A stretch of DNA of 64,000 bases from Owenia fusiformis (Eukaryota > Annelida > Polychaeta > Sabellida > Oweniidae). The first letter of the stretch is position 1, and each line of letters opens with the position of its first letter. The stretch covers positions 16,190,467 to 16,254,466 of the forward strand of contig CAIIXF020000002.1 in assembly GCA_903813345.2 (NCBI GenBank), read 5' to 3'. Position numbers and translations under genes: made by a program. Below, piece by piece: positions 653 to 32,716 of this stretch. The notes under the pieces are model-generated. The model saw only the letters and a list, made by a program, of their open reading frames with translations. It was not told the origin of the DNA and ran no database searches.

Positions 653-3600
653 TCATTTTGCTATAGAGAGGGTGGAGATTGCGCTCTTGCAATAGGCTGC
701 AGCCACCACAGCTGAGTACCTATGCCATTCATTCTGAGTGACGCCATCTAGATAGTCACACACGCTCCTAATGATCATAAAACCATCTTTCCCAGTATCT
801 TGGACACAGTCCAGTATATCACCTATTCCCCTGTCATAGCATATCACTCCGGCTGTTGTACCAAACATGTGGCGTAACTCATTCACACGCGAAATGTATT
901 TTCCTGACCCCATTGGTCCAAAATGAACGCGAGATTTGCCCTTTCTACGCATGTATTCTTTGCCTTTTGGGGGTTTCGGGTGCTCGACTTGTATATTCTC
1001 CCCTGCTGGGTCTGTCATGTAAATTTTATCAGTTCTGGCTAAAGGTCTCGGCCAGTTATAGCCGGAATCCTTCAGCAAACCGAGTGATTCATGGAGATAA
1101 TCTTCCCAATTTGCTTTAGTAAATGCGACACTTTCATTCCAATACATCAACATCTTGAGAGAAGTCTCAATGTTCTGGTCTGAGCAACCCCAGGAGCGAG
1201 TGCTAAAACTGAAATCGTCAGTTCCAGGTGTCCGCTGTACAGATTCACAGTTGACGTAGAGAGGCTGTTTGGTGTCGTCACTGTAGCAGACGACAACGTC
1301 ACCCAGGCGAACATCCTGATAGAAGTCAGTATGGTGAGGTAAACCGCCAACAACGCCAACAACCAGGATGTGTTTCACATTTGTAAATATAGCTAGAAAT
1401 AAAATGAAAAATAAAATTTGACTACAGTAGAACCTGTGGAAGTGGAACACCATTTGGAACCTCAAAAAGGTGTTTCACTAAGCATTTTCTACTGTACGCC
1501 ATTGTTCGATTTCGCCCTGCATCAGACGCTTGGTCGTTTTATAGCATTACATACTACGTACCTAGCAGTTGGTTGATTGTGTTCCAAGTGTATGTCGCCT
1601 CCTGTCTACTATCGATGGGCTTGCATAGCTTCGTGAGAACAACATTTGCATTGCCAATTGCACCCAAAGTATAGACACTGTTTTCACCTGCAAAAAGATA
1701 TGATAGATATCATATCGTGAAACAGTCAATTCAACATTCAAGCAAAGTAAAGCTGCAACAAGGCAATAACACGGAAAATGTCACAACCTGCCGTTTGTGA
1801 GAGAAGTAGAACGCCAAACACCAACCGGCAAAGACCGTCCACAAAAGTTGAAGAGCATTACCACTTTTAGTGGTGACATAAATAGGCTAGATCAAGTACG
1901 TAGGTGGGACGTTACTAACCTGCAGCTCTATGATGGACGTAAGTGGCTTTCTTGTCCAGTATAGCAGTAACAGCAATCATCTCACAATAGAACGTAGTGA
2001 TTATCGCAAACGTTGGATCTGGGTGATCAGAAATCTCACTTAGATCTTTTGATATTGTAATATCTGAGGAAGAACATAAAATATTACAATTATATCAATC
2101 AAATATATCCACTTTGATAATATATTGTAACAGAAATGGCGTACGGCGTTCTTATTACTTTTCCATCCACAGTTTAAGTTTTTAATGATTACGTAGTTCT
2201 AGTTTTAGCTCAATTAATTATGTTTAAAGGATAAACTGCATTTTGAAGTTATAATCATCTTTACAATTTAACTATGTGCAGTAAAACCTATACATACGAA
2301 CATCTGTAAATCAGAAACGTTCGTGTCCCAATGACATTCCGATTTGACAGGTTTTACTGCAGTAAAACAAATATTTCATTCCGAATCGGTGAACACCTCT
2401 GTCACTATCGACTTATGGAAAAATAATATCCTTCAAGAATCATAGGACATCTCATTAGAACACTACAATTATTAAACTGTAATATGTAGGTAAAGATTAC
2501 CATGATCTATGCCTACAGGGGCAAGTGTCCTCAACCAGACGCCCTTGTCAATTTGCTGTATGAGGCCAAACTCTTCAAGCTCCATGACAGCTTTGATAGC
2601 ATGTTGCTTGTCAATCAACTGTACACGGGCAACCCTATAAAATAATAATCATGATTGATAAATACCATTTTGATAAGTTGTACAATATGATTAAACCAGC
2701 TGCGTTTAAACCAGTTGAGGCCACGAGAACAATGAACATTTACCTCATCAACTGCTGTAAGTTGAGGGCACGAGGATTATGAATATTTACCTCATTAACT
2801 GTTGTAAGTTGAGGCCATGAGGATAATGAATATTTACCTTATTAACCGCTGTAAGTTGAGGCCACGCGGATTATGAATATTTATCTCATTAACTGCTGTA
2901 AATCGAGACCACGAGGATAATGAATACTTACCTCATTAACTGCTGTAAGTTGAGGCCACGGGGATTATGAATATTTACCTCATTAACCGCTGTAAGTTGA
3001 GGCCACGAGGATTATGAATATTTACCTCATTAACCTCTGTAAGTTGAGGCCACGAGGATTATGAATATTTACCTCATTAACTGCTGTAAGTTGAGGCCAT
3101 GAGGATAATGAATATTTACCTCATTAACCGCTGTAAGTTGAGACCATGAGGATAATGAATATTTACCTCATTAACCGCTGTAAGTTGAGGCCACGAGGAA
3201 TATGAATATTTACCTCATTTACCGCTGTAAGTTGAGGCCACGAGGAATATAAATATTTACCTCATTAACCGCTGTAAGTTGAGGCCACGAGGATTATGAA
3301 TATTTACCTCACTAACTGCTGTAAGTTGAGGCCATGAGGATAAACCTCCTCCAGAGTATCAATTATCTTCTGCTTCTTGGCTAACCAAAGAAAGAATTGT
3401 GCAGTTTTTCTTTTTGTTCGAAGTACTTCCTTTTCGTCAACCTCGTTATCTTTCGTATCTAAATAAGTATTTTAACATCAAAAATACTCCTTTCGGAAAT
3501 GTTATCGATCAGCGTTGTGTCAGGATCTCTGTTTCCAAACGACACTAATTTATGTTGCTTTAAACAATAAAAATAGATATTCATCGCATTAGACTATTTA

Positions 3601-6600
3601 AAGAGGCCTACTGTGTGGAAAAGGGGAACAAAAAATCCAATGAGTTTACTCAAGGGTCAGACATCTTAGTAAACATCTAGCAAAATGTCAGCACTTTTAT
3701 TCTATTGCTTTTCATTAAAATTGCTTGTAGTGTTTTACTGAAGTTTGGCGATTTGATATATGAACGTCTATGATTGATTATCCAATATGTGATTTTAGAG
3801 TATTTAGAGGAGGGAAAAGCAAAATAAAAGTGAAAATATCTAGAAAAATAAGCTTTTTTATATGCATATTTTTGTTTTACAACATACAACAAACTAGGAA
3901 GCCTAGGTAACGACAACGCCATTGTATTTATTGGCCTTCTTGTCTGAAATTTGTATACATAAAGAATAAAAAATAGAATGAAAAAATCGAATTAGGGCAT
4001 AATCAAGATATAATTGATGCAAGTACTTAATTGTAAAAAGCAGATACTGTAGAAATGTTGTTTTCGTTATGTGCAGCACATATTCCACATTCATGATACA
4101 TAAATAGTAGCAACAGCAAAAAATTCACAACTTAATAAAAAAGTAAATAAAACTGTAGCTAAGCAGTGGGTTTGTAGCATCAATTTCAGACGTACCTTGG
4201 CATCCTTTTTCTATCAGAATAACTAAGTATTCGTAAGAACTATGATATAAGTCATATAGTCACTGAGAAGTAATAAAAGTAGACCCCTGAGAAGTATGAT
4301 AAATTCATTAATCCCCCTTAGAAGAAATGTTGGACCCTAAGACGTAGAAAAGAGACCCCCCCAAGAAGTTGGGTATACGGAAGTACTTCACAGATTGGGA
4401 AACAGTTAAGCATTTTGTAAAAGCTGAACAGCTGGGTGAGACAAAAATACACTTACCCATTGGAAGCTCTGATCAATGTAATGAGGATAATATAGATATA
4501 CATTTAGTTAGTATAAACTTTTAGATATAGCAACATGTAAATGAGGTTTTAAACTTAGAGTTACTTTAGTTTTATCAAATAAATTTGAAAATATCAACTT
4601 CTTTAAAAAAAGTAAAAATCGAACTGTTTAAACCATTCACCTATTATTTCAACGAATTCCCATTTTCCCTCTGCCTCAATAGACGTTGAAACAGAAAGGC
4701 AGTTTACAGAATGGACCTTATCCATGGGGACTTTCCACACCATAAAGCCATTCCGTCCCAATTCATCACCCGTCCCAACCTGTAAAGAAAGTTGGGATCA
4801 ACAGCAACAGAAAACAGCAATACAACGTATTAACATTAACCGCGATTATACTAAGTCATCAAGGAGCATCGTAGCCGGTATGTAGACAATGAACACAATG
4901 AAACAACAAAAGTATACGGACCTGTAGCTTTCTCGTGTCCCAGCTGATCCAAAACTCCCTGTACTCATTCTCGTCCAGGAAGCCTTCGGTGGCCCTCTCA
5001 GCCACTACAGCTCCATTCGCACCTTCTTTTATCAATGACATACTATTCCCATGTGTACCTGGAAATTGGAATATCTTTGAAAGCCTATACTAATCATCTT
5101 CGCACGCTCGGTCTTCACTGCGTTTAAACCAACCGACGGCAGCAGATAGAGTGAACGAATGAACGATGGCGATGCTATTCAAATTAATAAAACAAAGAGA
5201 ATTCTCAAGAATGAACGATAGTTCAAAAGTACTCAACCATAGCAAAATACAACACAAATAAAAATGAAACGTCGCACAAACATTCTCTGAGATGAAAACA
5301 TAATATGGGCGGGCCCGGGGGCGGGCCCAGATATAGAGCGGGCCCTGCCTCCACTGTATTGTACACTGGTCTACTTACAACATATTTCTTTTTATCATTC
5401 GAGTATTTATGATAAAAGACAGCTAAAAGGAGGCAATTGTCACCGGGGTAGTAAAACCTGGATTACGGGTCTTACCGATTATCACCTCGTATGTGTCATC
5501 GACAGTGTCACCGTATACCGAGGAGAGAGCGATGTGGGCGTCAGACTTGGCCTTCACCCGGAACTTGATGTTGGACTTTTTAGAGACGTGTATTTCTGGT
5601 AAGTACTGGTAGTCGTAGTGAGCAGGCGTGAGCACCGTGATGTAGTTCTCTGCAAGACAATAGGCAAATTTTCATAGATTATATGACTTTCATTTTTATA
5701 CTTATCTTTTTATCTGGCTATGTTAGTTTTACTTACAGAAAGTCGTATAAAAAGAGCCTTATCTCCCATTTACTTGCTCTTACTTCCGAGCCTTGTCTGG
5801 TTTACTACTGAGCACCTTATGTGCCCTTATTCATAGAGAGCCTTCTCTCATTTATCAAAAGCCGAATCTGACTGTAAAAATCAAGAGCCTTATTCAGATT
5901 TAATTGCCAAGAAACCTGTCTGACTCTTCCAAAAAACCCGTGTCTGGGTTCACTTACCAAAAGTCTGGATTGATTTATATAAACCTAACATACAAAAAAA
6001 CTTATCTGGGTTTACGTACTAAGAGTCTTATCTGGGTTCAATTACCAAAAAGCCTGGAATGACTTTCCAAAAGCATTATACATGGCTTTACTTACTATGA
6101 GCCTTTTCTGGGTTTACTTACTAAGAGCCTTATCTGGCTTTAATTACTATGAGCCTTCTCTGACTTTACTTTCTAAGAGCCTTATCTGGCTTTACTTACT
6201 AAGAGCTTTATCTGGCTTTACTTACTAAGAGCTTTATCTGGCTTTACTTACTAAGAGCTTTATCTGGCTTTACTTACTAAGAGCTTTATCTGGCTTTACT
6301 TACTAAGAGCTTTATCTGGCTTTACTCTTGGAGGTGGAGGTGGTATTTCCAAGTACTCATCTTCTATTGTTTCAGGTTTATCCAACTTCACAGCTTTAAA
6401 CTCAACATCAATTCTCGCTATTTCGAGAAACTCCTGTTGTTTCATTAGGAATATCGCTTTCTTTAGAAATGTCATGTAATCCATGGGGAATTTTTCTGGT
6501 TTGAAAATAGTCTTGAAGTAAAGCTTAGATATGCTCTGTTTATGCTTGGGAGAACTGACAGATTGGTTGAACCAGAACCATAATGTGCGCATTTCCTAAA

Positions 6601-6958
6601 ATATAAGATACAAGACATTTACGTTTATGAGGCACGTTGTTCGTTAAATATTTAATTTTATATATCAAGTTATTTCAGACGTTGGCTAAATTCGTGAATT
6701 AAAGTGAATACAGTACATTTAGATCAAAATCAAATACGCGAACCTGTAAACCAGAACTTCTGTTAGTCCTCTCTCCTAGATCCGCCAAGCATGATAACGC
6801 ATTGTCTGGTGGTGCCCTCTTTTGAAGTCCATCACAACTAGATAGCGACGTGTTATTATTGAGTTCACATTGTTGCTGAGGGGGCGAAATGATTCTTTGC
6901 AATGACAGGCCTAACTTCAGGTTGTTTTTCCGCTTATATGATGTAATATTGATCGTTC
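653..6958 (-). CDS. FAMeT-like domain / winged helix / nucleoside phosphorylase fusion (ten exons, N-terminus incomplete)
   Basis: Exons, 5' to 3' on the minus strand: 6744-6958, 6304-6595, 5476-5649, 4922-5058, 4641-4779, 3308-3458, 2501-2634, 1920-2063, 1562-1687 and 653-1392. All have AG/GT borders and every junction keeps phase, giving about 749 codons to the stop at 653-655. Exons 3-5 form a domain like the farnesoic acid O-methyltransferase family (SDAHIALSS, YEVIIG, FWISWDTRKLQVGTGDELG). In animals this name usually marks a binding-type module rather than a proven methyltransferase. Exons 6-7 give a helical, winged-helix-like stretch (QLIDKQHAIKAVMELEEFG). Exons 8-10 give a PNP/UDP phosphorylase fold: VYTLGAIGNANVV, HILVVGVVGGLPHHTDFY, RLGDVVV and, near the C-terminus, IRSVCDYLDG, which corresponds to the conserved Asp of the purine site. 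The usual MEgaG glutamate region reads CYDRGIGD, so nucleosidase activity is uncertain. The likely role is intracellular nucleotide or nucleoside sensing or cleavage; this is inferred. Two of its introns start with exon-edge tandem arrays. Confidence 0.85.
1425..1494. mobile_element. Short pogo/Tigger-like MITE in an intron
   Basis: A 70-bp element with inverted ends CAGTAGAACC and a matching TTCTACTG, flanked by TA on both sides (1423-1424, 1495-1496). The end sequence and the TA target fit the pogo branch of Tc1/mariner. It makes up much of the 169-bp intron between the last two exons of the phosphorylase gene. A related, more diverged copy lies near 36505-36609. Confidence 0.6.
2278..2360. 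repeat. Small palindromic element
   Basis: About 83 bp bounded by the inverted 12-mers GCAGTAAAACCT and AGGTTTTACTGC, inside an intron of the phosphorylase gene. It is probably a tiny MITE, and no clear target duplication is seen. Confidence 0.45.
2711..3341 (-). repeat. 47-bp tandem array starting at an exon edge and repeating its splice donor
   Basis: About 14 copies of a 47-bp unit. On the minus strand each carries a sequence like GGCCTCAACTTACAG, then TTAATGAG followed by GTAAATATT. The copy nearest the exon body supplies the last 34 or so coding bases of exon 3308-3458 and its donor; the rest lie in the intron. Readthrough past the first donor meets TAA at once, so only the exon-proximal donor preserves the frame. 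Confidence 0.85.
5735..6325 (-). repeat. 26-bp tandem array starting at an exon edge and repeating its splice donor
   Basis: About 22 copies of a 26-bp unit. On the minus strand each reads like AAAGCCAGATAAAGCTCTTA followed by the strong donor GTAAGT. The first copy forms the last 22 coding bases of exon 6304-6595. Choosing CTTA/GTAAGT as donor restores phase with the next exon. The five or so copies next to the exon are nearly identical, while copies towards 5735 are strongly degenerate, so the array seems to have grown at the exon end. Confidence 0.8.
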
Positions 6959-7452
6959 CTGGAACACAACATTTTACATATTTTATTTCGTATAAACAGT
7001 TTGTTGATATATTTACTTTTTTTGATACATGTATCATCTTTACCAAGTTGTCCTGCAAAGTACCACACAATGTGATCTTGGACTTTATTAATTTATAAAA
7101 TCATATTTTTGAGATGCAAAGTCACATTTTTGAAAAAGGCAATATCTGTACGGAATTGGGAAACTTTGAAACCACATTTGATTTATTCTTTTAACCTTAG
7201 GCTAATCCTTGTTTAATTATTTGTCCCTGTATATAATTATTTGCCTGAAGATTTGACGTGAGTTTTGAATAAAAAGCAGCTAGATAGGATCTACTTTGCG
7301 GCAATGTCATTTAAATACCAAATCTAAATAGAGTAGCTCTGACCGGTAAATATTTTTTTAAGTAATGAAAATCGAAAAAGTAACTATTACTGTGGGCGAA
7401 AATGAAAAAAATGTGTTAATCGCTTTTGTGTGTGGAACCATGGGCTTTTGAT
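6959..7452. other. Probable intron sequence, no feature
   Basis: Sequence upstream of the first confidently placed phosphorylase-gene exon. The acceptor beside 6958 is good. No further exon or element was recognised before the MITE target site at 7453. Confidence 0.35.
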
Positions 7453-7460
7453 GTATCCAT

Positions 7461-8076
7461 CACGGACGGTCAAGTAAGTTTCTGGCGAAAGCTGGAGCAT
7501 AGATTATAAAGAGGACTGGAAATAAGATGGCAGTCTATTTCAAATCTGCCAACTCGTGTTGGCCTATTTGTCACTATTGACTCAGTTGTTCATCTAGTTT
7601 TACTTACCTTAGATGCTTAGTAATCTATTAAGTATAATATTGTTTCCAAAATTATTGTCATTTGCGATAATTAGTACAGGTCAGCTGCCATTTGCTTGGC
7701 TTAATCGTACCAGTCCACAAAATCAGTGAAATCATATTAAAAATACCAATAAAACTTTAAAATTGAGGCAGATGCGATACAAAGAGACTTTATTAATACA
7801 GATACACCCTCAAAATGCAATCTGATTTTCGACACCGTTTCGGTAGCAAATTTTGGTGTCGAAAGGTTTCGGTGCCGAAACGGTGCCGGAACAGCGCCGA
7901 ATCTTTTCGATGCCAAACGGTGTCGAATTATATTGGCTGTGTATACAGGTTACAGTCACCAAGATGAGCTAATTTCAGGCGAGATTCGGGAAATAAAAAG
8001 GTAGGTCATTCTTGTTTCCAGTCCTCTTAAATAATCTATGCTCCGGCTTTCACCAGAAACTTACTTGACGTCCGTG
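7461..8076. mobile_element. hAT-type MITE, 616 bp, perfect 8-bp target duplication
   Basis: Inverted ends beginning CACGGACG and ending CGTCCGTG, with terminal inverted repeats of about 60 bp (shared motif AAGTTTCTGGCGAAAGC). It is flanked on both sides by GTATCCAT (7453-7460 and 8077-8084). The 8-bp duplication fits hAT or a related superfamily. No transposase is present. The interior has a patch rich in CGGTGCCGAAACGG-type words at 7830-7925. A second family member is the outer element at 28821-32708. Confidence 0.85.
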
Positions 8077-8245
8077 GTATCCATGTCACTTGGGGAATAG
8101 ATTAATGAAGCATCATCCGGTCGAACGCAGGGGTTCACATCATTCAATCTCAGAGTGGAAGGTTCTAGACCCCTGCGTTCGGAGAATGTAATCATAAATA
8201 CTACAATAGCAGACGATCCAAGTAGAAATAATCTTGATTCACATT
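8077..8245 (-). other. Possible exon with a membrane-spanning segment, cut by the MITE
   Basis: On the minus strand an open frame has a hydrophobic run (LFLLGSSAIVVFMITF) followed by basic residues, then EPSTLRLNDVNPCVRPDDA and YSPSDMDT. It runs to the MITE target site. Without the MITE the frame would continue for about 13 codons on the other side. No acceptor fits well and the phase does not match neighbouring exons. It may be a lost or alternative exon of the gene at 653-6958, or chance. Confidence 0.2.
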
Positions 8246-8249
8246 TTTA

Positions 8250-9508
8250 ATTCACATCGAAATTTAGTCAAAAGTAATTTAATATGATTTATTTACATAT
8301 AAAAAAACATCCATTTAGTTTTGAAAAGTGTTTATCAACTTTGAAAATTTAATTTTCTCTGAAAATGTGACCATAGAGCCCATGTTAAAAATACGTACAA
8401 AAGAGTGAAACATCTTTTTTTCTTGTTGTCGACATACAGTACATGTACTTTCGGTTTAGTAATTATTAAACACAAAAGGGTTATATAAAAATTGATCCAC
8501 TAATTCTACTTAAGTTTAGCATTTTTTTCCCTTTATCTGCCATGGTCTGTCTGTAACTTGACCCGAATTAGCCATCTAGTGGTGAAACTGGTAACTACCT
8601 AGGCCTACATGCCAACTGTTTAAACTGCTTCTTTATTCGGTACATTAAATATTCCATAAATACTAAATAAAACAAACAATTTACCAAACCTTTACCCAAT
8701 CTATCGAATGTTTTTTATTTTATCGAATGTAATAATCTATACAATTTGTATTCGCTAAATAGTTTCACTTGTTCTTTGTGTTGCATTCATATTTGATATT
8801 TATACATGTATTTGTGTGATGTAGCGAATCAATTTGTTTTCCTTAACGCATGTATAATTCAATTAATCATTTGTACCGAATGCCACATCCGATAAATTTC
8901 GTCATTTTTCGATACGTTACGAGACTTTCAGTCACGTGATATATTTGAACGATATAGAATACCTATGCGGCCATTTTGCAAATCAGTCTCGAGGTCACGT
9001 GACAAAATATCGAACAACAACAAAAGTTATCGAATATTACCGTATTCCATTCGGTAAATAGCAAATTAGCTTTCGGTAAAATGCATTAACTATGTCATAG
9101 GAAAATAAACCATGGTAAATACAGGCAAACTTATTTCGGTAGGGTTCAAATAGAAATTCAATATTGTGCATATAATGTGTTACTCTTAAGGAATACCATA
9201 ACAATTTACGCAAAACATATCATTTAACGAATGAAATATGTAATTTTATGCACATAGTATGAAGTGATTGGCTATTTTGAAAACCTATTCTGTAACAAAC
9301 ATATTAACGTTATTACCGAATTGACAAATGATCTAGTGAATATAAATATTTCATATATTTGTATTTAATGAATAACGAAGCAAAAATAATGCCATAGCCA
9401 ACAAGCACCTGGGTTATTGTACAATAGGCGCTGATAGCCAAGTTCTTACAGACATGCATCTAAGTACCAATTTATTTCGGCATAGGTAGAGATTGGCACG
9501 CCAGCCTC
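8250..9508. other. AT-rich, no feature recognised
   Basis: I found no exon, tandem repeat or element in this stretch on either strand. Confidence 0.4.
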
Positions 9509-9580
9509 GCCGTGATCGTCTAGTGGTTAGGACCCTACGTTGTGGCCGTAGTAACCCAGGTTCGAATCCTGGTCACGGCA
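9509..9580 (+). tRNA. tRNA-His (anticodon GTG)
   Basis: 72 nt with a full cloverleaf: acceptor GCCGTGA pairs with TCACGGC, D-loop region TAGTGGTTAGGA, anticodon loop TTGTGGC containing GTG, and T-arm GGTTCGAATCC. The sequence closely follows the animal tRNA-His pattern. A T-run follows at about 9593 and can serve as a Pol III terminator. The 10-mer just upstream (9490-9499, AGATTGGCAC) is the exact complement of 9582-9591, forming an outer stem around the gene. Confidence 0.97.
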
Positions 9581-10106
9581 AGTGCCAATCTAATTTTTGT
9601 TTCTCGATTTAATCAAAAGTACTGATGTGTAACATCTTTGTCGAATAATCAACAATTTGTGCATCCCATATTTTCATGTCCGCTCCTTTGCACAAGTCAC
9701 CCCGATGCTGTTGTCAAAAATGGATATATTATTAAAAATACAAAAATATAAAACATTTCGCATTTGAAATGTGTTTCGAGCTAACCAAATGGTTTTGGTT
9801 TTTGGTTTTGGTTTTATCGATTAGAAGAAGCTTGTTATGAGGTAGCCTATAATAAGTAAATTGCAAACCCGGGCCTCAGGTTTAAACCATATAAGTTAGT
9901 TCTGACTTTATTCTGTCGGTCTTATGGCTGGTATTGTAGGTTCCACAGCCTCAACTCTCTTTTAGAGAGAGAGGAGATTTCGTTTTCAATTTTCAGATTC
10001 AGAATCAAGCTTCGGACGTAGTGATTGAGCTTGGGAACCGACGATGATTCAGAATGGTATTCAATAATATTTATTCCGTCTGTCAAACAGATGGCATTCT
10101 AGCCTC
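9581..10106. other. Spacer between the two tRNA genes
   Basis: Apart from the first tRNA's terminator T-run, I see nothing definite. The two tRNA genes share only the six-base leader AGCCTC and the gene itself, so the duplication is old or gene-limited. Confidence 0.4.
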
Positions 10107-10178
10107 GCCGTGATCGTCTAGTGGTTAGGACCCTACGTTGTGGCCGTAGTAACCCAGGTTCGAATCCTGGTCACGGCA
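10107..10178 (+). tRNA. tRNA-His (anticodon GTG), second copy
   Basis: Identical in all 72 positions to the copy at 9509-9580. Flanks differ beyond the AGCCTC leader. A T-rich terminator follows at about 10187-10197. A short outer stem (GGCATT upstream, AATGCC downstream) again brackets the gene. Confidence 0.97.
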
Positions 10179-11196
10179 ATGCCTTCAAAATTTTATTTTT
10201 CACAGTAATCGAAACTACTGATGAGTTTCATTTTTAATTTTCAATATTGTAACGTTTTTTAGTATCATATATGATAGAAGCACTACATCATGAAAAACTA
10301 GCTAATTGAAGACCTTGACTTATTTATTTGAACAATTTATTGGGAGCGTAGGAGATAAATATTAACATAAAACACACACTAGTTTAGTGTATGTGTAATT
10401 AGAGGTACGCCTTTGATAATCGGTAAATAAAACACTTCACTCTATGCCCCTCTTTAAGAAGTATATTGCCTAGTGGCCTTCCTACCTTACCTGACGATAT
10501 AATAAAAGTCAGCGTTTCATTGTTTTAAGTAATTAGATAGTTTTGGAATTAATTCTGATCAATTGATCATTGTGAAGAGGTTAGGGTGGTATGTACTTTT
10601 AGTTACATAATCAATTAGATACCCTAGTACTGTTTATGGTACAAGAGGAAATGGATTGAGATTGGGATTGGTGACATTTTGAGGAAGGGTGATTCGTCCA
10701 AATGATAAATGGAAGTTTGATGACACCGCACTTTAGTCACATATTTGGCACAAACGCTCACATTAGTAAAATAAACACAGCACTATTTTGAACTTATGAT
10801 TTTAATAACAACTTTGACCAGCATTGAAAGCCCATGGACCAGGCAAATAAAATATTTTCTGACTCTGTTCCCTTCGGCTTGTTATGGTTAGGAGGAATAC
10901 TATCTCTGTTGCTCAGCTTCTTATCATATCGTGGTATCTCAAGTTGATAACCCTTTATATCCTGTCACCTTTTGCTTGACAAACCATGGTCAATTCAGAC
11001 CGAAAAGGGTTAAACTAGAAAATACAGCTGGTGTACCTAATTAAGAAAACATCACGTATTATGTAGTTCTGTACTGTAGCCAAAATAGGTCTCAAAAATA
11101 AAAAACAAATAGAATGATTAGACTTCTAATCTATAAATAACTAGTGCAGTCTCCACAGTTAGTTGTAACTGAACCTCTGTAAACAGTAACACTCAC
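10179..11196. other. Intergenic or intronic, no feature
   Basis: AT-rich with no convincing exon or element. If the exons at 11.2-11.5 kb belong to the phosphorylase gene, both tRNA genes lie inside its first large intron on the opposite strand. Confidence 0.35.
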
Positions 11197-11510
11197 TTGT
11201 CTGTTAAAATGAATCATTTCTTCCAGCGGAATATTTGGCGTGGCTCTATTTCCATTTCTAATCATAGCAATTGCAAATGCACATCGCCCATTGTCATGGG
11301 GAACATAATAATTAACTTCTGAAATTTGTATATTACCGTGGTCGATTATCAATTGTCATAATTATTTTCAGTTCATTTCGCATACCTATGGCCGACTGTC
11401 AACATTGGTATGGACGATTATCATTAAATCGAGAAGAACTATCATAGTTGTCATAAATCATATGTGCCAAACTAATCAAACTTACCTTTCTGATCAGAGG
11501 CATCCTCCAT
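11197..11510 (-). CDS. Candidate 5' coding exons (start codon plus second exon)
   Basis: Exon 11486-11510 begins at ATG (MEDASDQK) and ends at a perfect donor, GTAAGT. Exon 11197-11318 has a TTTCAG acceptor, continues in phase (VNYYVPHDNGRCAFAIAM, then NIPLEEMIHFNRQ) and ends at GTGAGT. Order, strand and phase suggest the N-terminus of the gene at 653-6958. The second exon ends in phase 0 while exon 6744-6958 needs phase 1, so at least one exon between them is missing. It could also be a separate small gene. I recognise no domain. Confidence 0.45.
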
Positions 11511-12371
11511 TCTAATGCCTTGAGCTGATTCAGTGATTATCTACCAATTTCTCTTTTTTTTATTTTGTCTGTTTAGCTACTTTTGGATAAAATGTCAAAT
11601 CTACGGAACATACAAATAGGTTCTAAAGTAAATCCAAAACAGTATTTGTGATTCCAAGTTAGTAAGTGTATTCCAGCATCTGTGATTACTCAAGAGTTAT
11701 AAATAAACTGCTAAAAGACAGAAGCCCCGAGAATTCTAGCTGTTTTCCAGTCTGTTAGCGCTGTTCCTCGACCAGCTCACCCATCCTGAAACTATCTGAG
11801 AATATTTAATAGTGATTTTGTTCCAATTACCTGCTTTTATACCTAGACATGTTCGTATGGTAAGTGAATTAAAACACACTAACTGCCAGTGGCTATCAAT
11901 CTCCAAGCATATACCAGGTGGATCCAAGCAGATGTACAGAACTACAGGTCATTGTATGTGGAGAATGGTACATCATTAACAAGGGCAGGAGTCGCAATCT
12001 CGGCTGTCTTCAGGGGCGTAGCCAGGGTCGAAAATAGAGGTGGAAAATTTAAATAGGGAGACAAAGGTACTGAGCAGATCTGTCAATGTAGCAATACGCA
12101 TCGTTTTGAAAGAATTCGATAAAAAACGTCCGCGACAAATATTCAAACACTAGTACTTTTATTGATAAATGTAATCTACGCCAAACATATTTGCCATTAG
12201 ATCATACAGGTAAATAAACCAAGCATTTTTTCACTCTGCAAAGATACTGCGAAGTTCACATAACATGTCAGTCAAAGTAGGACAATAGAAAGGTTCATTA
12301 ACACGCATTTGGGAGAATTTGAACGTTAACGGAATTGTTGTCCATTTAAGTCTCTGGGAACATTATCACAA
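11511..12371. other. No gene; one transposon-end-like motif
   Basis: Near 12011 lies AGGGGCGTAGCCAGGG, a word typical of hAT-type element ends in invertebrate genomes, but no partner end was found. The rest is unremarkable. Confidence 0.35.
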
Positions 12372-12656
12372 CTATTTTCCTCGTACATTCATATTCAAGT
12401 GGGACGGCAAATACGTAAGGCCAGTGAGGTTAAAATAGTTCATAGGGACCGTCATTTTATAAGTTTCACGCACACATCCTTCAAAAGAGTCCCCGGGACA
12501 TCTTGTACCAGTGCGGTGGGGAGTTATTTTAATGTAACTGCCACTCACATTATACAAATTGATTGGTATGGGAACATATTGAAATTTAACAGATTGGTAT
12601 GGGAACATACCGATATTTGTGGGTTCAGCGGGTTCAGTCTGGACGGAAGCAAGCAA
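12372..12656 (-). other. Unassigned open frame
   Basis: An open frame of about 95 codons ending at 12372, with extracellular-looking content: NVS and NLT glycosylation sites and two cysteines (TRCPGD, EGCVRE). Part of it is a direct repeat (GGTATGGGAACATA occurs twice on the plus strand). No start codon or splice context is convincing. It could be a terminal exon or chance. Confidence 0.25.
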
Positions 12657-12829
12657 AAGTTCGCTTATATCAACTCCTCTTGGGAAAGAGTGCTATCTTA
12701 TCCTCCCTCATCGTGTTAAAACTTAACCGAGAACCTACTCAAACCAATGGGTCAATGCCCCACAAGCACCATGGGATGTCCACATAATCGAAACGTCAGC
12801 AATAAAACTATATATGATACAATTAATAT

Positions 12830-12934
12830 CACACCGGAAAAGCCTGGCAACTGTAAAGTCATGATCAGATACCGTTGTCACAAATGGCGGACATAACCGT
12901 CGTGACTTTACCGTTGTCAGGCTATTCCGGTGTG
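12830..12934. mobile_element. 105-bp palindromic MITE
   Basis: Inverted ends CACACCGGAA and TTCCGGTGTG, extending imperfectly through AGCCTGGCAACTGTAAAGTC. It is flanked by AATAT on both sides (12825-12829, 12935-12939), a probable 5-bp target duplication. No coding capacity. Confidence 0.65.
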
Positions 12935-12939
12935 AATAT

Positions 12940-13734
12940 GAATATTTGACGATGAAGTCGGTTATGCCATTTTGAAACTCATTAAATCTTTCAAAGGAAT
13001 AATAAGTTTCTGATATTCTGGGATCATTGATATTTCTCTTCATGTTGTGTTTTGTAAAGTTCTGTCCACATTGGCACGTGTGCTCACATATGCATGATAA
13101 AAAGAGAGTATGTCAATTTGGAGAATTTAACAAAATGATAAAATATATCCACACCCTTCTCCAGCAGTTTTTAAAATATTGATAACAAATAAATAAATTA
13201 TTTTACGTTTTTATTTTCCATTCTCTCTTACGATTTACTGTTCTATGTTCAGCATTTACAAAACTTGACATTTGATGTAACCTAATACAATATGTTCAAT
13301 CTAATAATGACGGAGAAGTGTACCTTCATGCAAATTTAAAAAGTTGACATTTCACTATTAACATTCAAGGATATTGCAAATCCTTAAACTTCAAAAAAAC
13401 ACATGAAACCATGATTTCTGTTAATTCTGGTTTATGTTTGATAAAACCAAATTATACAGTATGCATTCATATAAAAACTGTCATATGTACTGTATTTATG
13501 TCATGTCAGTTGTGAACCTTCGTTAAAATGTCAGCTCTGAATAATCTAAGGCTATGAAACATTACGATATAGCCAAGCTACGGTGACGATGCCCAACACA
13601 TTATGATGAAGCTTCATCCCCTATGCTGGAAACTGACCTACATTGATGGCGCACAAACTAAATAATAGAAACGGACCGACTAAGATGATGCCCAGACCCC
13701 ATTTGACCCATGATGATGGAGCCCTACCAACCAT
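12940..13734. other. No feature recognised
   Basis: AT-rich spacer grading into the 60-bp minisatellite. From about 13615 degenerate GATGATG/GCCC words foreshadow the repeat unit. Confidence 0.35.
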
Positions 13735-14960
13735 GGCGAAGCTTGATTCCCTTTAATTGAGCCAAACATACAATAAAGGAACCAAAGCTACTATAACGAA
13801 GCTTGACCTCCTTTGATGGGGCCAAACATACAATAAAGTAGCCCAGCCCACTATGATGAAGCTTGATCCCCTTTGATGGAGCCCAACATACAATAAAGGA
13901 GTCCAACCCACTATGATGGAGCCTGATCCCCTTTGATGGAGCCTAACATACAATAAAGGAGTCCAGCCCAATATGATGAAGCTTGATCCCCTTTGATGGA
14001 GCCCAACATACAATAAAGGAGTCCAATCCACTATGATGGAGCCTGATCCCCTTTGATGGAGCCTAACATACAATAAAGGGAGTCCAACTCACTATGATGA
14101 AGCTTGATTCCCTTTGATGGAACCAAACATACAATAAAGGAGTCCAGCCCACTATGATGAAGCCTGATTCCCTTTGATGGAACCAAACATACAATAAAGT
14201 AGCCCAGCCCACTATGACGAAGCTTAATCCCCTTTGATGGAGCCAAACATACAATAAAGTAGCCCAGCCCACTGTGATGAAGCTTGATCCCCTTTGATGG
14301 AGCCAAACATACAATAAAGGAGTCCAGCCCACTATGATGAAGCCTGATCCCCTTTGATGGAGCCCAACATACAATAAAGTAGCCCAGCCTACTATAATGA
14401 AGCTTGATCCCCTTTGATGGAGCCCAACATACAACAAATGAGTCCAGCTCACTATGATGGAGCCTGATCCCCTTTGATGGAGCTCAACATACAATAAAGT
14501 AGCCCAGCCCACTATGATGAAGCTTGATCCCCTTTGATGGAGCCAAACATACAATAAAGGAGTCCAGCCCACTATGATGAAGGCTGATCCCCTTTGATGG
14601 AGCCCAACATACAATAAAGTAGCCCAACCCACTATGATGAAGCTTGATCCCCTTTGATGGAGCTCAACATACAATAAAGTAGCCCAGCCCACTATGATGA
14701 AGCTTGATCCCCTTTGATGGAGCCAAACATACAATAAAGGAGTCCAGCCCACTATGATGAAGCCTGATCCCCTTTGATGGAGCTCAACATACAATAAAGT
14801 AGCCCAGCCTACCATAATGAAGCTTGATCCCCTTTGATGGAGCCCAACATACAACAAATGAGTTTGATCCCCTATGATGAAGCCTGATCCCCTTTGATGG
14901 AGCCCAACATACAATAAATGAGTTTGATCCCCTATGATGAAGCCAACCTACAATGATGGA
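13735..14960. repeat. 60-bp minisatellite, about 20 copies
   Basis: Units resemble GATCCCCTTTGATGGAGCCC plus AACATACAATAAAG and a variable end (GTAGCCCAG, GGAGTCCAG or TGAGTTTG type). Since 60 is divisible by three and the unit lacks stops on the minus strand, it gives a 283-codon open frame with a 20-residue repeat (core LYVGLHQRGSSFIIVGWATL). Neighbouring frames are open too, so I take it as non-coding. Variant order repeats with a spacing near 420 bp. Confidence 0.85.
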
Positions 14961-15525
14961 GCCTGCCACCTAGATTTAGTAAGTTAAAATAGTTATATAT
15001 TATTTAAATAATATATTAAAATATTTGATTTGAGCAGTTCGCAAACAACTGATTCTGTAGTATTGATTCTATGTGGTCAGGCCCTACGCAAGTAATGAAT
15101 GCATTCATATATTTCACAACAAAGTTCAAGTCTAACATGTAAACTATTCTTGGAATGTACACCCGTAAACGACAGTTTCTCTATATATTCATTTGAGATA
15201 TTTAACATGTGATACGAAACTCTACAAGGCATTAACATGCAAAATGTCACCACTTGCTCCTTGTTAAAGACACCATTTGTTAAGACACCGACTGCTGAAT
15301 GCCAAACACCAACCACTGTCACAACTTGTGGTGGTGACATAACAATGAGCATCTGTCATCGTACAACACTGTTACGAACATTTACAAGTTATTACAAGCA
15401 TTATTTACAGTTGAGCATTATAATTTAAGTACATTTCAAGAAATCATGTTCTAGTTTATCTACCTCAATAAGGCCACTGGAGCTATAATCAATAATCATG
15501 GTATTAATTATATAAATATATCACC

Positions 15526-15665
15526 TGGGGGTCAATAACAGAAACTTCATAAAGTTACGAATTCGTAAATCAATTGTTGTAAACATGGATATGATGACTT
15601 CACAGTAAGAGAACAATGGACTTTGGGAACTCTTAACTTTACGAAGTTTCTGTTAATGGCCCCCT
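15526..15665. mobile_element. Palindromic MITE, about 140 bp
   Basis: Left arm GGGGTCAATAACAGAAACTT and a near-complementary right arm AAGTTTCTGTTAATGGCCCC, with about 35-bp arms. No open frame. Confidence 0.6.
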
Positions 15666-15734
15666 GCTTACATTTGTTCCAAGCAATTTCTCTATTCTAT
15701 GTACTGCACTGTTACCTTTAATCTCTCAAATATT

Positions 15735-15890
15735 AGGGCAGCCTACAACCACCCTCACAATTTAAAATCTTGAAAATAGTGAAAGTTCATATCATTAAAA
15801 TCTGCTCTGTATCAAATAAGTGTAAATTTCTCATATTTTCTACTTTATATTTTCAATAGGTTTTAAATGTGAGGGTAGTTGTAGACAACC
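15735..15890. mobile_element. Palindromic MITE, about 155 bp
   Basis: Left arm GCCTACAACCACCCTCACA, right arm TGTGAGGGTAGTTGTAGAC, with arms of about 50 bp including imperfect parts. Non-coding. Confidence 0.6.
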
Positions 15891-17386
15891 AAACCCTTTA
15901 TGGGAAAATATTACCTTGGATCATTTCAGAGTGTACTTTACAATAAAAAATGAAGAATATGACAACTAGTTACATATCCTGGTGATTTCACTATTTTTTG
16001 CAACTTTAAATGCGACCATATACGGTATTCGGCTTGAATGGTAATTCTATTGGAACTATAGAATATACACTCCTGTATACTTATTTTTGTAATATATATT
16101 ATATGCGATAAAAATGCTAATATTGCAACTTGACATTTCCATATTGCATATTCTTCACTTGGAAAACATGCTTAATGTTAATCACTTTTGACAAATAAAT
16201 TCTGATTTACCTTCTGGTTTTCAGTTGTTAAAAAGCATTGACCTATTTTCATCCAGAAGGGGTTAAGTACATAAGTAGATTAATCGTTGCACAAATAACT
16301 GATTTGCAACAGAAATACCTACACAGACAACACTGACTCATTGTCCTCTATTTCAACATTACAAGTACAGAATGTATAGAGTATTAACATGCATCATGCA
16401 GTATCATGATTCTTTTCAGAACATTTGAAACATTTATTAATATACAGGTAATGTATTCCTTATTTTTTTCACCCAAAATTCAACGATAAAATCATTGAGG
16501 TAGCCATTTTGATACCTTAGCACATTATGGCAGGTATCGAAATTGTATATTTATCAATACTTAAAAAAAACAAAATAGTGAACACTTTTCTAATATCATA
16601 ATACCAGCAATACCACTCAGCATAGCTTGATATACTGGAGTTTGGAATGGCTTAACATATAGGCCTAGTGTGGAGATGAAGAAAGTGAACAATGACACAT
16701 GCATGCTAGACATGCTTGTATAACCTAATGCAGTAACGGACTTAGAACTGTCAACAGATGGCAGACAATTTGATGGGTTGATTTCATATTTACAACATGT
16801 ACTGCACTGACTTTTAATTCTTTAACACATAAGTAAAGGATTATGAATAAAAAAAGGATTTGTTTGATTAAGTTAAAGATTTACACATAAACCATTGAGG
16901 GTAAGGAGAAGTCAACAAGTGACCTGCCATCTATACAATTCCTAATTCTTATTTAACACTTATGACAAATTGATGATTAAAATAATGCCTTTTGAGAGCT
17001 GCACATTTAAATTAACAGATCAAATAAAATGATCTAACAATGGTCCTGCATGGCAGAACTAATTACTTTATAGTATATTTTTTTGTTATATGGTCCCGAG
17101 GGTATCACCCATGTACTACAATGATGCCATCTATGTTCCAAGGACCAAGATTGTGTGATACATGTACTTTATGATGTCACACATTTACCCAGGTGATGTC
17201 ATACATATACCCTGGTGTTATCATACATATACCCTGGTGATGTCAGCCATGCAGCGTGATGATGCATCGAATATGAATCAAAAATGGCTGATGTTGTCCA
17301 CTCAAAATCCTTTTCCATCTTCAGTTATGTTCTTCAGTAATTTTCAGTGGATGATCACAAACGATTGATGAAGGATGCGCAATTCT

Positions 17387-20300
17387 TCACACTCCCTCAT
17401 TACTAAATGGTGACAACATTGGGTCATGTGTCTGAGAACTACTGGGTAAGTTCGATTGCTGGAATAGCATTTGCTGCGGGACTAGAGTTAATGGAACCAT
17501 AGGATCACTGGTTGATTGCGCCACCTGGAACAACAACATGAATTCATTAGTACAGATTGACTTACACAGGGTTACCAAAATGTTTCAAATATCAATGCCC
17601 TTTCTTTTCCCCAATTAAAACATTAGATCCTTAATCCTGTAATTCAATGAAAAGAGAGATAAAGTAACACGTTCATTGAATACATGTATATGATTTTAGT
17701 AGACAGTTTTGATTTAGTTTTTTTTATTTCATGCATGTTTTAAGTAATGGTAGTTTTAAAAATTCCACTCACTTTAGAATTTTCAGACTATTTTACTTAA
17801 CAGACTGTGGAAACCTTATTATTAGTCAAATGTGAAAATCTCTTAAATAATTAAAAATTAATCCATTTCCTAAGAATTGAGTTGCCTTTGGACACTTGGT
17901 ACTTACTGGGGCCTGCACTATGGGACTAGGAGACAACAGATTCTGTTGTTGCATTGTGACTACTGGAGTTGTCACTGATGTACTAGAGTCTACAATCAAT
18001 TATTAAAAATTTCTAAATATACAAGTATTCACTGAGAAGGGATTAGATACAGGGAAAATTACAAGACCAAACACTGTTATCAGTCAATAGGGACCTATCC
18101 TAAACTGAACAGTGAATAAAGGAGTAATCTCATGCTTATTGTAAAGAAAGAAAATGGCATGGCAACTGCTTTCTTAATTTCTGATTGAAACACAATATCT
18201 ATTCATACAAAAGCAAACTTGAGCATCGTTTCAATGCATTATGTATATTCAATGGGTTCACTTTGTTTACATCATTGTAGATAGTTTTTTTTAAAATTTG
18301 GTTTAAGGCAAAGCACTGAATAAATGGTCCCTACTCTGTGGCATTTGGGTAGCAGCTGGTGATCCTGTTGCATTAATCATTGGGTTTGTCATTGACAGCT
18401 GCATGGCAATGTTCTGAAGCTCCATCTGTTGTTGCATGATAGACTCCTGCAGCTGTAGCTGTTTCTGCTGTAGCTGCAGATGTAACTGTCGTTGAGCTGC
18501 ACTTAAGTGAACCTAAAATGAAGAGTCCAATACAAAGTTTGAAAAAATATAATTTAAACAATATTTCTTGTGCCTGGAAGAGGTTAAAACTTTGTTTACC
18601 TTTGTTTACACCAATGCATAACTTCCCTCCTCATGTGATAGGCCCCCTCTACCATGTCAACCACCTCCTATATTACTGAACCATTAAACTAGACTAAGAC
18701 CATTTCATTGTATGATGCAGTATTGTTTACAAGTCTTCTGTACAAATACCAATTAAATAATATGAACACTGACCGACAAATGCCCACTGCAGAGACTGTC
18801 TACAAAAAAGGTGGAGACTATAACAATAGTGGTAGTTACATAAAAATGAATAATGATTACCTTGGGCACAGTTCCTTCAAATCCCCCTGAGGTTGTATTC
18901 GTACGTTTCCCTAATTTGGGACCTGAGGGAGGTAACTCAACAGGCCTACTGGGCGAAAGGCTTGCTTGGGGTACCTCCTTTGGCTTTGCTGATTGGGTGC
19001 TAGGAAGCTGAAAGAACAGAGACATTTAATCAACATATTATAAGTTACTAAAAAGCTGCCTGAAGAGACACAAAAATAATGACAAGCAAACTTGTGATCA
19101 GTTTTTAGAATTCTTTACAAAACTTAATCAAAACTATCACAGAACCATAACAACTTCTTCCTATAAAAGACTGAGGTAATCAGGTTCAGTAATCCTACGA
19201 TATAGCTGTTTTAACATTGTATCCTTTAACTTACATTATATTGTGAGTCAGGCTGGACACTTGTACTAGGCTGTGGAGCTGAAATATAAAGATTTTCATC
19301 ACTCAGTCCTTTAAACATTATTGAAATGCTTGAATCATCATCTTTGCTCAGTTACAAATCTTCCAAGTTTTCCAGCATTAAGTAAAATTGGGAATAGTAA
19401 ATGAGATAATAATTTCAATATTTCCATGAACACACTTTAAGATCTATTTGAGAATGTGAAAAGTTTAGACAATGTTTTAATTTAAGGTGATAATATGCTT
19501 AAACCCTTGTAAAATCATAGGCCAAAGAGCTTAAATTGTAAGAGGCATTTACCATCAAACATCCTATCGCTGTAGACAGCCTGTATGGGGAATGAGTCTG
19601 AAGGACTGTTGGAATGGACCCACAATTCCTTGTCAGATTCAGCAAGCTTTTTCTCAGGTTCTCCTGACGGGTCAAATATATCATTCAAGCTAGAAAACAA
19701 GAAACAATTATTAACTTAGGACCCACATAATAATAAACAATGAAGCATACCTTATAACTTTGTGAGTATATACAATTAAATATACCTTATAACTTTGTGA
19801 GCATAAACAATGAAGCATACCTTTTAACTTTGCGAGTATATACAATGAAGCATACCTTATAACTTTGTGAGTATATACAATTAAATATACCTTATAACTT
19901 TGTGAGCATAAACAATGAAGCATACCTTTTAACTTTGCGAGTATATACAATGAAGCATACCTTATAACTTTGCGAGTATATACAATGAAGCATACCTTAT
20001 AACTTTGTGAGTATATACAATAAAGCATACCTTGTAACTTTATGAGTATATACAATGAAGCATACCTTATAACTTTGTGAGTATATACAATTAAATGTAC
20101 CTTATAACTTTGTGAGCATAAACAATGAAGCATACCTTATAACTTTGCGAGTATACACAATGAAGCATACCTTATAACTTTGTGAGTATATACAATAATG
20201 CATACCTTATGACTTTGTGAGTACATACAATGAACTCAGGTTTAGAGTTCCATTGGTGGTATGTGATGTAATATCTGGTTTGGAGCCACATCCACTCCTG

Positions 20301-23300
20301 TCCTTTTGTCAAGAATCTATATTTACAAGATACACCCTCTCCAGTTGACATCACTGAAAATGAGTGAATTATGATTCCTTATTAAGCATAAGCATACCAT
20401 AAGACTCAACATCATTATTAATTGATTAACAATTAATGTAATTATGTTATGGCATGACATTATGAAAATTTAGAGCAAGACAAGATCAGGGAATCAGGTT
20501 TATCAGAAAGTCAACATTTATAATGAATAAATATGTAATATATATAATGAACAAATTACAACCAGTCATATGTGTCAGCCATATTTTTTATTTATTTCAA
20601 AGATGTATATAGGAAATAAACAAGCAAGGTGCAAAATCTTCGAATATTATATGTTAAATTCTTTCATTCTTTCTTTCTTGTCATGAATTTTACTCTTTTA
20701 GGTAACATATACAAAATTAACCAATCAGTAAAATGTTTGATAAACATCATACTCACACTGTTCGTGATTTTTTCCTATCTTTAAGAGATCATCGGGGTGG
20801 TAATAATCGTACCCTGATGTACCAAGCACCTCAAATGGCAGATAGCCAATAATAGGAGGACCCCTGAAATCATCACAAATAAAGTAAAAAAGTAAATAAA
20901 TAAAAAATTAACAGATTAGAACAATAATCTTATGACATTCATGTGAATCATATAATAGACTATTATGACAGCTATGAATTGCTTATATTCAATGACTGTA
21001 TACTCCTCTATTCTTTTTAGTAGTTGTATCCATTTTACCCTTTCCATTCGTTCAACTACGCTTCTTAAATGAGAGATTCATCTTACTTTTAGCTAACTTC
21101 TACCCTCAGGGTAATTCATTAAGGGCCTTTTAAACTAAATATTTGCTCCCTGAAAGGGCATCCCAAACATCACTGGCCACATCATTTTATGGTCCTTTTA
21201 GGACTTGACAAGTTTTCTTTCATTTTAACCAGTATTTTTACATTTTTAGAATAATAAGTACTGCTAAGATGTCAAATGAAATAAAGAGTCCTAATTTGAG
21301 AACAATGCTCACCTATGGTCCAAGAATAGGAATTTCCACTCTAAGCTATGTCTGGATGTGAACTCATTACAAACATTATCAACATGTGACATCTCTCTAA
21401 TTAGTTTAGAGTTGATGAGTCGTATAGTCGCACAGAAACATATGTTGTGCTTGTCTTCTTTATTGTACATTGAAGACACAGTAGACACATTGTCATCCAA
21501 ATACAGATCTGGAAGTAAAGAGTTGAGTATTGTACACTGAAGACACAGTAGACACATTGTCATCCAAATACAGATCTGAAAGTAAAGAGTTGAGTATTGT
21601 ACACTGAAGACACAGTAGACACATTGTCATCCAAATACAGATCTGGAAGTAAAGAGTTGAGTATTGTACACTGAAGACACAGTAGACACATTGTCATCCA
21701 AATACAGATCTGAAAGTAAAGAGTTGAGTATTGTACATTGAAGACACGGTAGACACATTGTCATCCAAATACAGATCTGGAAGTAAAGAGTTGAGTATTG
21801 TACACTGAAGACACAGTAGACACATTGTCATCCAAATACAGATCTGGAAGTCAAGAGTTGAGTATTGTACACCGAAGACACAGTAGACACATTGTCATCC
21901 AAATACAGATCTGAAAGTAAAGAGTTGAGTATTGTACATTGAAGACACGGTAGACACATTGTCATCCAAATACAGATCTGGAAGTAAAGAGTTGAGTATT
22001 GTACACTGAAGACACAGTAGACACATTGTCATCCAAATAGAGATCTGAAAGTAAAGAGTTGAGTATTGTACACTGAAGACACAGTAGACACATTGTCATC
22101 CAAATAGAGATCTGAAAGTAAAGAGTTGAGTATTGTAAATTGAAGACATAGTAGACACATTGTCATCCAAATAGAGATCTAAAAGTAAAGAGTTGAGTAT
22201 TGTACATTGAAGACACGGTAGACACATTGTCATCCAAATAGAGATCTGAAAGTAAAGAGTTGAGTATTGTACATTGAAGACACGGTAGACACATTGTCAT
22301 CCAAATACAGATCTGGAAGTAAAGAGTTGAGTATTGTACACTGAAGACACAGTAGACACATTGTCATCCAAATACAGATCTGGAAGTAAAGATTGAGTAT
22401 TGTACACTGAAGACACAGTGGACACCTTGTCATCTAAATAGAGATCTGAAAGTACAATACAAACAACCCCACCACTAACAATTGCTTACCTGGCTCTGGG
22501 TTCCAATATCGGAAGCTTCCATTCACCTGGACCTGTTCATATACTATATCTTCATCTTTGTCAGTTTGTCTCTTCAGATGGCACGTGAACATCAACTGGT
22601 TCTCCTCTGAAAACATAACAATCATAAGTAGACTATTATCTCCCTTAATATCATATTAAGTTCATTGATGAGTCGACATAAAATTATTAAAGCTAAATAA
22701 TAAAATAAATAGCGAGAAGAGTAATTGTGTCCTTTGGTCAGTAAGCATAGTCTACCTACAAACATGACAAGACCTTGTGATCCCCTCTACTGGACTACAA
22801 ACCTTCTCACACAGGCTGTTGTAGTGGGGTGGGGGATCACAAGGGCTAGTAGCTAAACAGAATGGTGAGTCAAATCTATAAAAAGATTCTTGTAAATATC
22901 AAAGAGCCGACTGTTCCTACCTTCCTCAAAGTGTGACCTGGTGGAGTTGCTATTAAAGATCCTACGGTTTGTGAGGATGTTGTACAAATCAACTCTCTCA
23001 TCTGGGTGTAGGAAATCATAGATTGACCTGTTGGACAAGTTGCTCTGGAAATGCAACACAACAAATTAGAATTAAGAAATATAGACCGAAGAGTAGGGGT
23101 AATATTGTCGAATACACCCTGCAGGGCTAGGCACAAACGTTATGACATCACACATTACACGTATTACCAGGGGTATTCTTCGCGAATATGCCCAGGGTGA
23201 AATGTTGATTTTGCTTACAGTTTATAGAAAGCGTTAATAGTCATGTTTGAATTCATGATCAATTTCATTTCTACAAATTTTAAAATGTATTTTGTGTAAA

Positions 23301-25999: not shown

Positions 26000-26674
26000 C
26001 TGAAAAATGGAAAATATGTATAAAGTATTAAATCGTATAAAATGTTAACCACTAGCTATAACTTGATCAAACAGACAAATACCTCCACATTCAGGGTTAA
26101 ATGAAGAATAAGAAGATTACAGTGCTTTCCCCAGGTTTTTTCTCAAATGGGTGCAAATTTTCAATTTTTCAAATTCAGACCAAACTGGGTTAATATATCT
26201 GTTTAATTTTTAGGTAAGTGCGAACTGTATACTTTCCTGAAAAAAGCAAAGAAATACACACATGCCTTTATACTTTATTTTGCACCAGAAAAGAACATGT
26301 GCAGGTATAGCAATTTTTTCAAAAATGTTTTCATTTAGAAGTACCTTAATGCCTTTGGTAGAACATGGGTCTCAAACATGATGAAAATGACATTTTCTGC
26401 AATTTTCAGACAATTTTAAAATGGTAGAGAATGGGCGTCAGAGAATGTGGTAGGAAGGTCTAAACGTCAACAGATTTATCTGAAATGTTTTGAGCTTGCT
26501 TTCCTCTACCAGGAAACCAACTGGGCAAAACTCCATCTTGATCCGGAAAAAAGTTGACACCGACATAATAATAATGATTGTGTGCAGGAAATTTCATGTT
26601 TTTTTCCAACAGGAGGGACATAATGATCAATAGACTGAATTCTCAGGAAATTCAGTCTATTGGATATAGACTAA
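26000..26674. other. CLOCK upstream intron or promoter side, no feature assigned
   Basis: The missing 5' exon of CLOCK should lie upstream of here. I could not identify it. A short perfect hairpin (GACTGAATT ... AATTCAGTC) lies at about 26633-26657. Confidence 0.35.
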
Positions 26675-27386: not shown

Positions 27387-27470
27387 TTATTCGAGTAGGC
27401 CCTCTTCAAATCTATCACTATAACAATAAAACCAAAGTTTAGTGGGAATGAAGGCTTAATTTAACAAGAA

Positions 27471-31702: not shown

Positions 31703-31715
31703 TAAATAGATTACT

Positions 31716-32544: not shown

Positions 32545-32716
32545 AAGCATCTAAGGTAAGCAGTAAGTAAAACTAGATGAACAACTGAGTCAATAGTGAT
32601 AAAAAGGCCAACACGAGTTGGCAGATTTGAAATAGGCTGCCATCTTGTTTCCAGTCCTCTTTATATTCTATGCTCCAGCTTTCGCCAGAAACTTACTCGA
32701 CGTCCGTGAATATTAT

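Follow-up and report, generated by a model that had tools for sequence, protein, structure and literature searches.

Four tandem arrays that repeat exon edges with their splice sites in CLOCK and a neighbouring gene resemble the mirages of amphioxus

Analysis of a 64,000-nucleotide stretch of contig CAIIXF020000002.1 (positions 16,190,467 to 16,254,466; hereafter the window, 64 kb) revealed the circadian gene CLOCK and a second gene, designated gene 1, both on the minus strand, which together harbor four tandem arrays with units of 26, 47, 35 and 67 bp. Each array repeats the edge of a coding exon together with its splice site and extends into the adjoining intron. The arrays were located by Tandem Repeats Finder (TRF) followed by wraparound alignment, and the gene models were drawn from sequence alone as GT/AG introns with a single open frame.

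The CLOCK model (17387..32826, minus strand) contained 16 coding exons in one open frame of 608 amino acids (aa), and all 15 introns were of the GT-AG type. Residues 16-370 matched a solved CLOCK chain with an E value of 4.7e-126, while the best BMAL1 chain reached just 2.6e-43; no relatives of CLOCK were matched in a scan of viral_contigs. The gene 1 model (653..6958, minus strand), whose 5' end is provisional, contained 10 coding exons and 9 introns and encoded 749 aa. Pfam matches were obtained to Methyltransf_FA (PF12248, 1.8e-27), beginning in exon E5, and to the winged helix HTH_69 (PF22979, 1.7e-6, 28.2 bits against a cut-off of 27), beginning in exon E8; the C-terminal part, without a Pfam match, presumably resembles nucleoside phosphorylase. 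Candidate first exons of gene 1 (MEDASDQK...) were seen at 11134-11536 on the minus strand, and their reading frame, judged by eye, fails to join E3 as drawn. The GC content of the two coding sequences was 0.43 and 0.44, and that of third codon positions (GC3) was 0.43 and 0.46, lower than the GC3 of about 0.6 in Branchiostoma. These values suit a mollusc or a comparable animal more closely and speak weakly against amphioxus; we consider a cephalochordate host unlikely.

In gene 1, the 26-bp array (5710..6326, minus strand, donor type; 23.6 units with 77% identity to the unit by wraparound alignment) repeats the final 23 coding nucleotides (nt) of exon E4 (6304..6595, 292 nt) with the donor TTA/GTAAGT, the slash marking the splice junction, and runs through the intron 5650-6303 that precedes exon E5 (5476..5649). 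TRF alone covers just 6083-6326 of this array, in which nine copies are clean, the exon's own included, and the remainder is decayed. The 47-bp array (2713..3341, minus strand, donor type; 13.4 units, 94% identity by TRF and wraparound alignment) carries the final 34 coding nt of exon E8 (3308..3458) with the donor GAG/GTAAAT, and 13 full copies extend into the intron 2635-3307 that lies before exon E9 (2501..2634). In CLOCK, the 35-bp array (19733..20234, minus strand, donor type; 14.3 units, 94% identity) comprises the final 29 coding nt (FIVCTHKVI) of exon E10 (20206..20353), which we take to be the end of the PAS-B part, with the donor AAG/GTATGC in 14 full copies in the intron 19690-20205, followed by exon E11 (19553..19689). 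The 67-bp array (21461..22454, minus strand, acceptor type; 14.9 units, 97% identity) joins the 3' intron end TTTACTTCCAG to the opening 48 coding nt of exon E8 (21313..21508); its 15 copies, of which the farthest out is one base off register, occupy the intron 21509-22489, and the donor of exon E7 (22490..22606) is followed by a mere 35 nt of array-free intron.

When read on the minus strand, one copy in each of the four arrays is the real exon edge: ...CCAGATAAAGCTCTTA/GTAAGTAAAG in the 26-bp, ...CAGTTAGTGAG/GTAAAT in the 47-bp, ...ACTCACAAAGTCATAAG/GTATGC in the 35-bp and CTCTTTACTTCCAG/ATCTGTATTTGG... in the 67-bp array. Every unit thus holds both coding sequence and a splice site. The original prediction of four arrays across exon edges, three of them of donor and one of acceptor type, was reproduced close to its coordinates by TRF, alignment and the gene models, and the overlap with coding sequence stood as well, although the overlap of 22-47 bases proposed there becomes 23-48 in the models. 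Pairwise comparison of the four units (six pairs) indicated that none scored above the best of 100 shuffles; the pairs 26/67 and 35/67 both scored 21 while their shuffled maxima were 23 and 21. The units are therefore unrelated in sequence as well as in length, as had been claimed, and a single repeat family for all four arrays was ruled out.

An edge-by-edge scan of the 24 introns, which for introns longer than 1 kb covered the nearest 1000 nt, showed that 4 of the 48 exon edges scored 43-60 and the other 44 scored 9-19. No concealed array was seen at these 44 edges, the lowest p being 0.015 (acceptor edge of gene 1 E4-E5), which is unremarkable among 44. Placement was analysed for those TRF arrays within the gene models whose unit was 20 bp or longer and present in 4 or more copies (n=5); four of these sit on exon edges. 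The remaining one, a 162-bp array of 4.4 copies (27513-28233), lies deep in CLOCK intron 1 and is the only large array in the gene models off the exon edges. Arrays outside the gene models were excluded, namely the 60-bp array at 13738-14943, a 22-bp array behind the CLOCK stop (17172-17245), the satellite at 38-60 kb and a 90-bp array at 62084-62719. The probability of at least four of five falling on edges was 3.1e-6, 1.2e-4 and 3.6e-2 under three nulls in which whole arrays were slid, and 1.4e-3, 2.4e-3, 6.7e-3 and 1.6e-2 under four nulls for the birth place of the seed unit; the weakest values came from nulls that omit both the 6.8-kb first CLOCK intron and placements damaging exons. Since the pattern itself led to the choice of this window, all of these values are too good. 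The assertion that the arrays are far more than expected by chance consequently held only in part, with P as low as 3e-6 and as high as 0.04 depending on the null, in a post hoc test.

The splice signals of the extra copies are largely intact. GT or AG was kept in 45 of the 47 extra clean copies (7/8, 11/12, 13/13 and 14/14 in the 26-, 47-, 35- and 67-bp arrays), a tally confined to clean copies and therefore without the decayed ones of the 26-bp unit. When scored with a position weight matrix (PWM) derived from the remaining donors (21) or acceptors (23) of the same two genes, most of these sites resembled the real one. The protein is lost with any other choice of site: use of an internal copy introduced an early stop in all 47 choices, including those in which the added units amount to a multiple of three, and coding use of the internal copies was thereby ruled out. 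The frame remains open with the exon-proximal site, in agreement with the earlier proposal that this site preserves it. Well-preserved sites are what would be expected if the arrays were functional decoys, kept to tune splicing or expression, for example of CLOCK. We consider this very improbable, as the same structure occurs in an unrelated gene and the GT/AG columns were not significantly more conserved than other columns (2 minority letters where 4.5 were expected, P 0.17, in a weak test). The latter result is what neutrality predicts and, as far as so weak a test can tell, gives no indication that decoys are selected for or against.

The extra copies have drifted from the exon copy in two of the arrays. 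The extra copies of the 35-bp array have a consensus that departs from the exon copy at 4 positions, 3 of them in 13/13 copies; where the exon has TGT (Cys), each of the 13 extra copies has TAT (Tyr) and reads FIVYTH instead of FIVCTH, and this Cys is identical in the solved CLOCK (FIVCTH). In the 47-bp array 4 exon positions differed, one of them in 12/12 copies, while there were 2 differing positions in the 67-bp and none in the 26-bp array. Copies 1-13 of the 67-bp array shared 91-99% of their bases with the exon copy. Copies 0-4 of the 26-bp array, of which copy 0 is the exon edge, were identical, copies 5-8 were 81-92% identical, and those farther out had decayed with insertions and deletions, a gradient in which the copies beside the exon are apparently young and the distant ones old. 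Similarity within the 35-bp array was raised at copy lags 3 and 6, which points to duplication in blocks. Since copy identities vary among the arrays, their ages and the share of the exon copy in homogenization would differ too.

The host introns consist almost entirely of array, which makes up 594 of 654 nt (91%) for the 26-bp, 595 of 673 nt (88%) for the 47-bp, 473 of 516 nt (92%) for the 35-bp and 946 of 981 nt (96%) for the 67-bp array. The remainder, 60, 78, 43 and 35 nt respectively, is the opposite splice site with its surroundings. Reconstructed with a single copy, the four introns would measure about 67, 91, 49 and 53 nt; counted from the outermost copy's own site, the lengths were 109, 61 and 44 nt for the 47-, 35- and 67-bp arrays. 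All 20 array-free introns (142-6789 nt) were longer than the single-copy host introns, which are thus the four smallest of 24, a 1 in 10626 event under exchange of labels, noted post hoc. By arithmetic, about 54% (26 bp), 67% (47 bp), 82% (35 bp) and 100% (67 bp) of the positions at which a randomly placed unit touches such an intron would cross an edge. In introns that short, crossing of the edge is therefore expected more often than not, and the two regularities, short host introns and arrays on exon edges, would merge into one. Very short introns may be where the arrays begin or persist; alternatively, the arrays may displace the rest of the intron.

Two explanations address this pattern directly. 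According to the first, the introns had become too short for good splicing, selection favoured exon-edge duplications that restored length, and the arrays were then kept above the minimum. The single-copy lengths (67, 91, 49 and 53 nt, all below the array-free range) are in its favour; we nevertheless regard it as quite unlikely, because the pattern was spotted post hoc and involves just four introns (n=4) of two genes from a single window, the intronic array lengths of 473-946 nt exceed any such minimum, and the single-copy length is a reconstruction which assumes that no unique sequence was lost. According to the second, the introns were of ordinary length, and their unique sequence gave way to expanding arrays, with deletions, until only the opposite splice signals (35-78 nt) were left. 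The remainder does approximate what the opposite site requires, 43-78 nt before the acceptors and 35 nt after the donor, and the 26-bp array, decayed far out and identical beside the exon, suggests long-lasting turnover. Expansion by itself, however, leaves the flanks in place, so that deletions would be required in all four cases, and traces of decayed arrays were sought in the 19 array-free introns of at most 1.3 kb by a self-similarity test with 6 shuffles each. The best of them scored 32, all being below the decayed control (43), though 4 of the 19 exceeded the highest of their own shuffles. We consider such a replacement possible, if unlikely.

The four introns with weak periodicity were CLOCK E5-E6, E8-E9 and E9-E10 and gene 1 E5-E6, with scores of 32, 26, 25 and 22 against shuffled maxima of 21, 21, 24 and 20, respectively. 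The first of these, highest in self-similarity among the array-free introns, carries an 11-bp repeat of 2.7 copies (23605-23634), intronic, about 20 nt from the CLOCK E5 donor and without exon sequence.

Duplications of intron/exon boundaries are known from amphioxus. The Adh3 mirage work is, according to the globin paper, that of Canestro et al. 2002, and the globin paper itself (PMC3087553) is presumably Ebner et al. 2010. Minisatellite-like duplications in amphioxus globin genes were named mirages after the Adh3 work, and length instability, exclusion of the boundary copies and a mechanism called unclear were described (PMC3087553). Lancelet PGBD5 is a further case, TnC is also named, and splicing is reported to be regular in Adh3, globin and TnC (PMC3087553, PMC3902484). 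As in these genes, the units found here cross the splice junction, are of donor or acceptor type, and place in the intron extra copies carrying AG/GT signals, here 45 of the 47 clean ones (PMC3087553, PMC3902484). The exclusion of the amphioxus boundary copy from homogenization may have a parallel in the exon copy set apart at four positions in the 35-bp and 47-bp arrays, and the range of the Adh3 units (10-72 bp) covers the 26-67 bp seen here. Unlike in amphioxus, where BflGb6 carries 6 or 3 units, each of 150-160 bp, and a 157-bp duplicate is present in BflGb9, four arrays of 13-24 copies each occur in two neighbouring genes. These four arrays fill 88-96% of their introns.

Minisatellites that sit on exon-intron boundaries and alter intron structure were also described in human segmental duplications, with 27 intron modifications (PMC2812944). 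Those repeats are recent and average about 4 copies of a 30-bp unit, and for two thirds of them an alternative transcript exists, whereas here the arrays are longer and the alternatives all lead to a stop. Splice signals are likewise multiplied in intron gain by tandem genomic duplication (PMC3443670), and introns newly born from a tandem duplication inside an exon could explain why the hosts are nearly all array. This AGGT model is backed elsewhere (PMC3443670), and intron gain from mirages has been proposed (PMC3087553). It requires, however, that the duplicated AGGT segment supply both splice sites; the arrays hold one, and in all four introns the opposite site falls within the 35-78 nt that are not array. 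The AGGT route was rejected on this ground, and we find an origin of these introns by duplication hardly credible. Among the matches listed in a literature search, which covered titles and abstract openings and left most subscription journals outside, none was a mirage-like case in a non-chordate invertebrate; absence from print is not claimed.

We assign a probability of about 0.75 to the reading that the four arrays are mirage-type minisatellites. A short segment across a splice junction would have been duplicated in tandem, and the duplicate then multiplied and shuffled, probably via slippage or unequal exchange. Selection on the protein would hold the copy next to the exon, which would be the site that is spliced, while the remaining copies, being intronic and removed whole by splicing, would drift together. 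Exon definition favours the sites nearest the exon body, and nonsense-mediated decay clears mis-spliced RNAs; retention of the arrays could accordingly be neutral, with the nearest sites preferred and mis-spliced RNAs removed. The very short length of the host introns at single copy is perhaps why the arrays cross the exon edge. Either of the two explanations of intron length given above can hold alongside this reading, which they refine.

Several points weigh against it. In each of the four arrays some internal site outscores the real one, slightly or clearly, the clearest being a copy of the 47-bp unit (GAG/GTAAGT, 11.5 against 7.8 for the real donor). In the 67-bp array, 13 acceptors with PWM scores of 9.1-11.9, against 11.8 for the authentic one, precede it, 110-914 nt from the donor. 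Under a simple first-AG rule one of these internal acceptors would be chosen; the outermost acceptor is just 44 nt from the donor. Neutral retention does not by itself account for all four arrays being in the introns that are shortest at single copy, and splicing, polymorphism and growth are inferred from one sequence.

If the arrays are mirages, the structure would be of a kind already described, to which a possible link with very short introns would be added. The recurrent exon-edge duplication put forward earlier, which lengthens introns and multiplies splice sites, agrees with the four arrays and their 45 of 47 preserved sites, and is the process described as mirages. That over-shrunken introns have been lengthened by multiplication of the exon edge outside cephalochordates too, with origin in short introns rather than attraction to edges explaining why the junction is crossed, is an idea that we hold to be improbable. 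If true, mirages would be a general route from tiny to ordinary-sized introns, and an array would later decay into seemingly unique intron sequence, as the distal part of the 26-bp array is doing. The link to short introns offers a concrete and countable hypothesis for growth in intron length. In a cephalochordate host the finding would merely be a known one. If the host is no amphioxus, exon-edge minisatellites may be more widespread than the cases found in print, and genes of this type are natural experiments on the choice of the spliceosome among near-identical sites.

Other repeats were found in the window. The satellite at 37977-60008 consists of about 8 tandem copies with a unit spacing of 2.6-3.1 kb, each with inner arrays that include 96 bp x2, AATAC, TCTGGTTCGTTGCTTG and 161-164 bp x4-7; no relatives of it were matched in viral_contigs. 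A dispersed element with ends near AAGTTTCTGGCGAAAGC was recognized by eye in both orientations at about 7480, 8040, 28840 and 32680, with no matches in viral_contigs and genome_contigs. Scans of the window with Rfam and for tRNA genes yielded only two genes, both tRNA-His (anticodon GTG) on the plus strand with equal scores, at 9509-9580 and 10107-10178, 600 bp apart. The 60-bp array (13738-14943) has 20 copies and lies between the two gene models, off their exon edges; its unit length is divisible by three, which leaves long reading frames open across the array.

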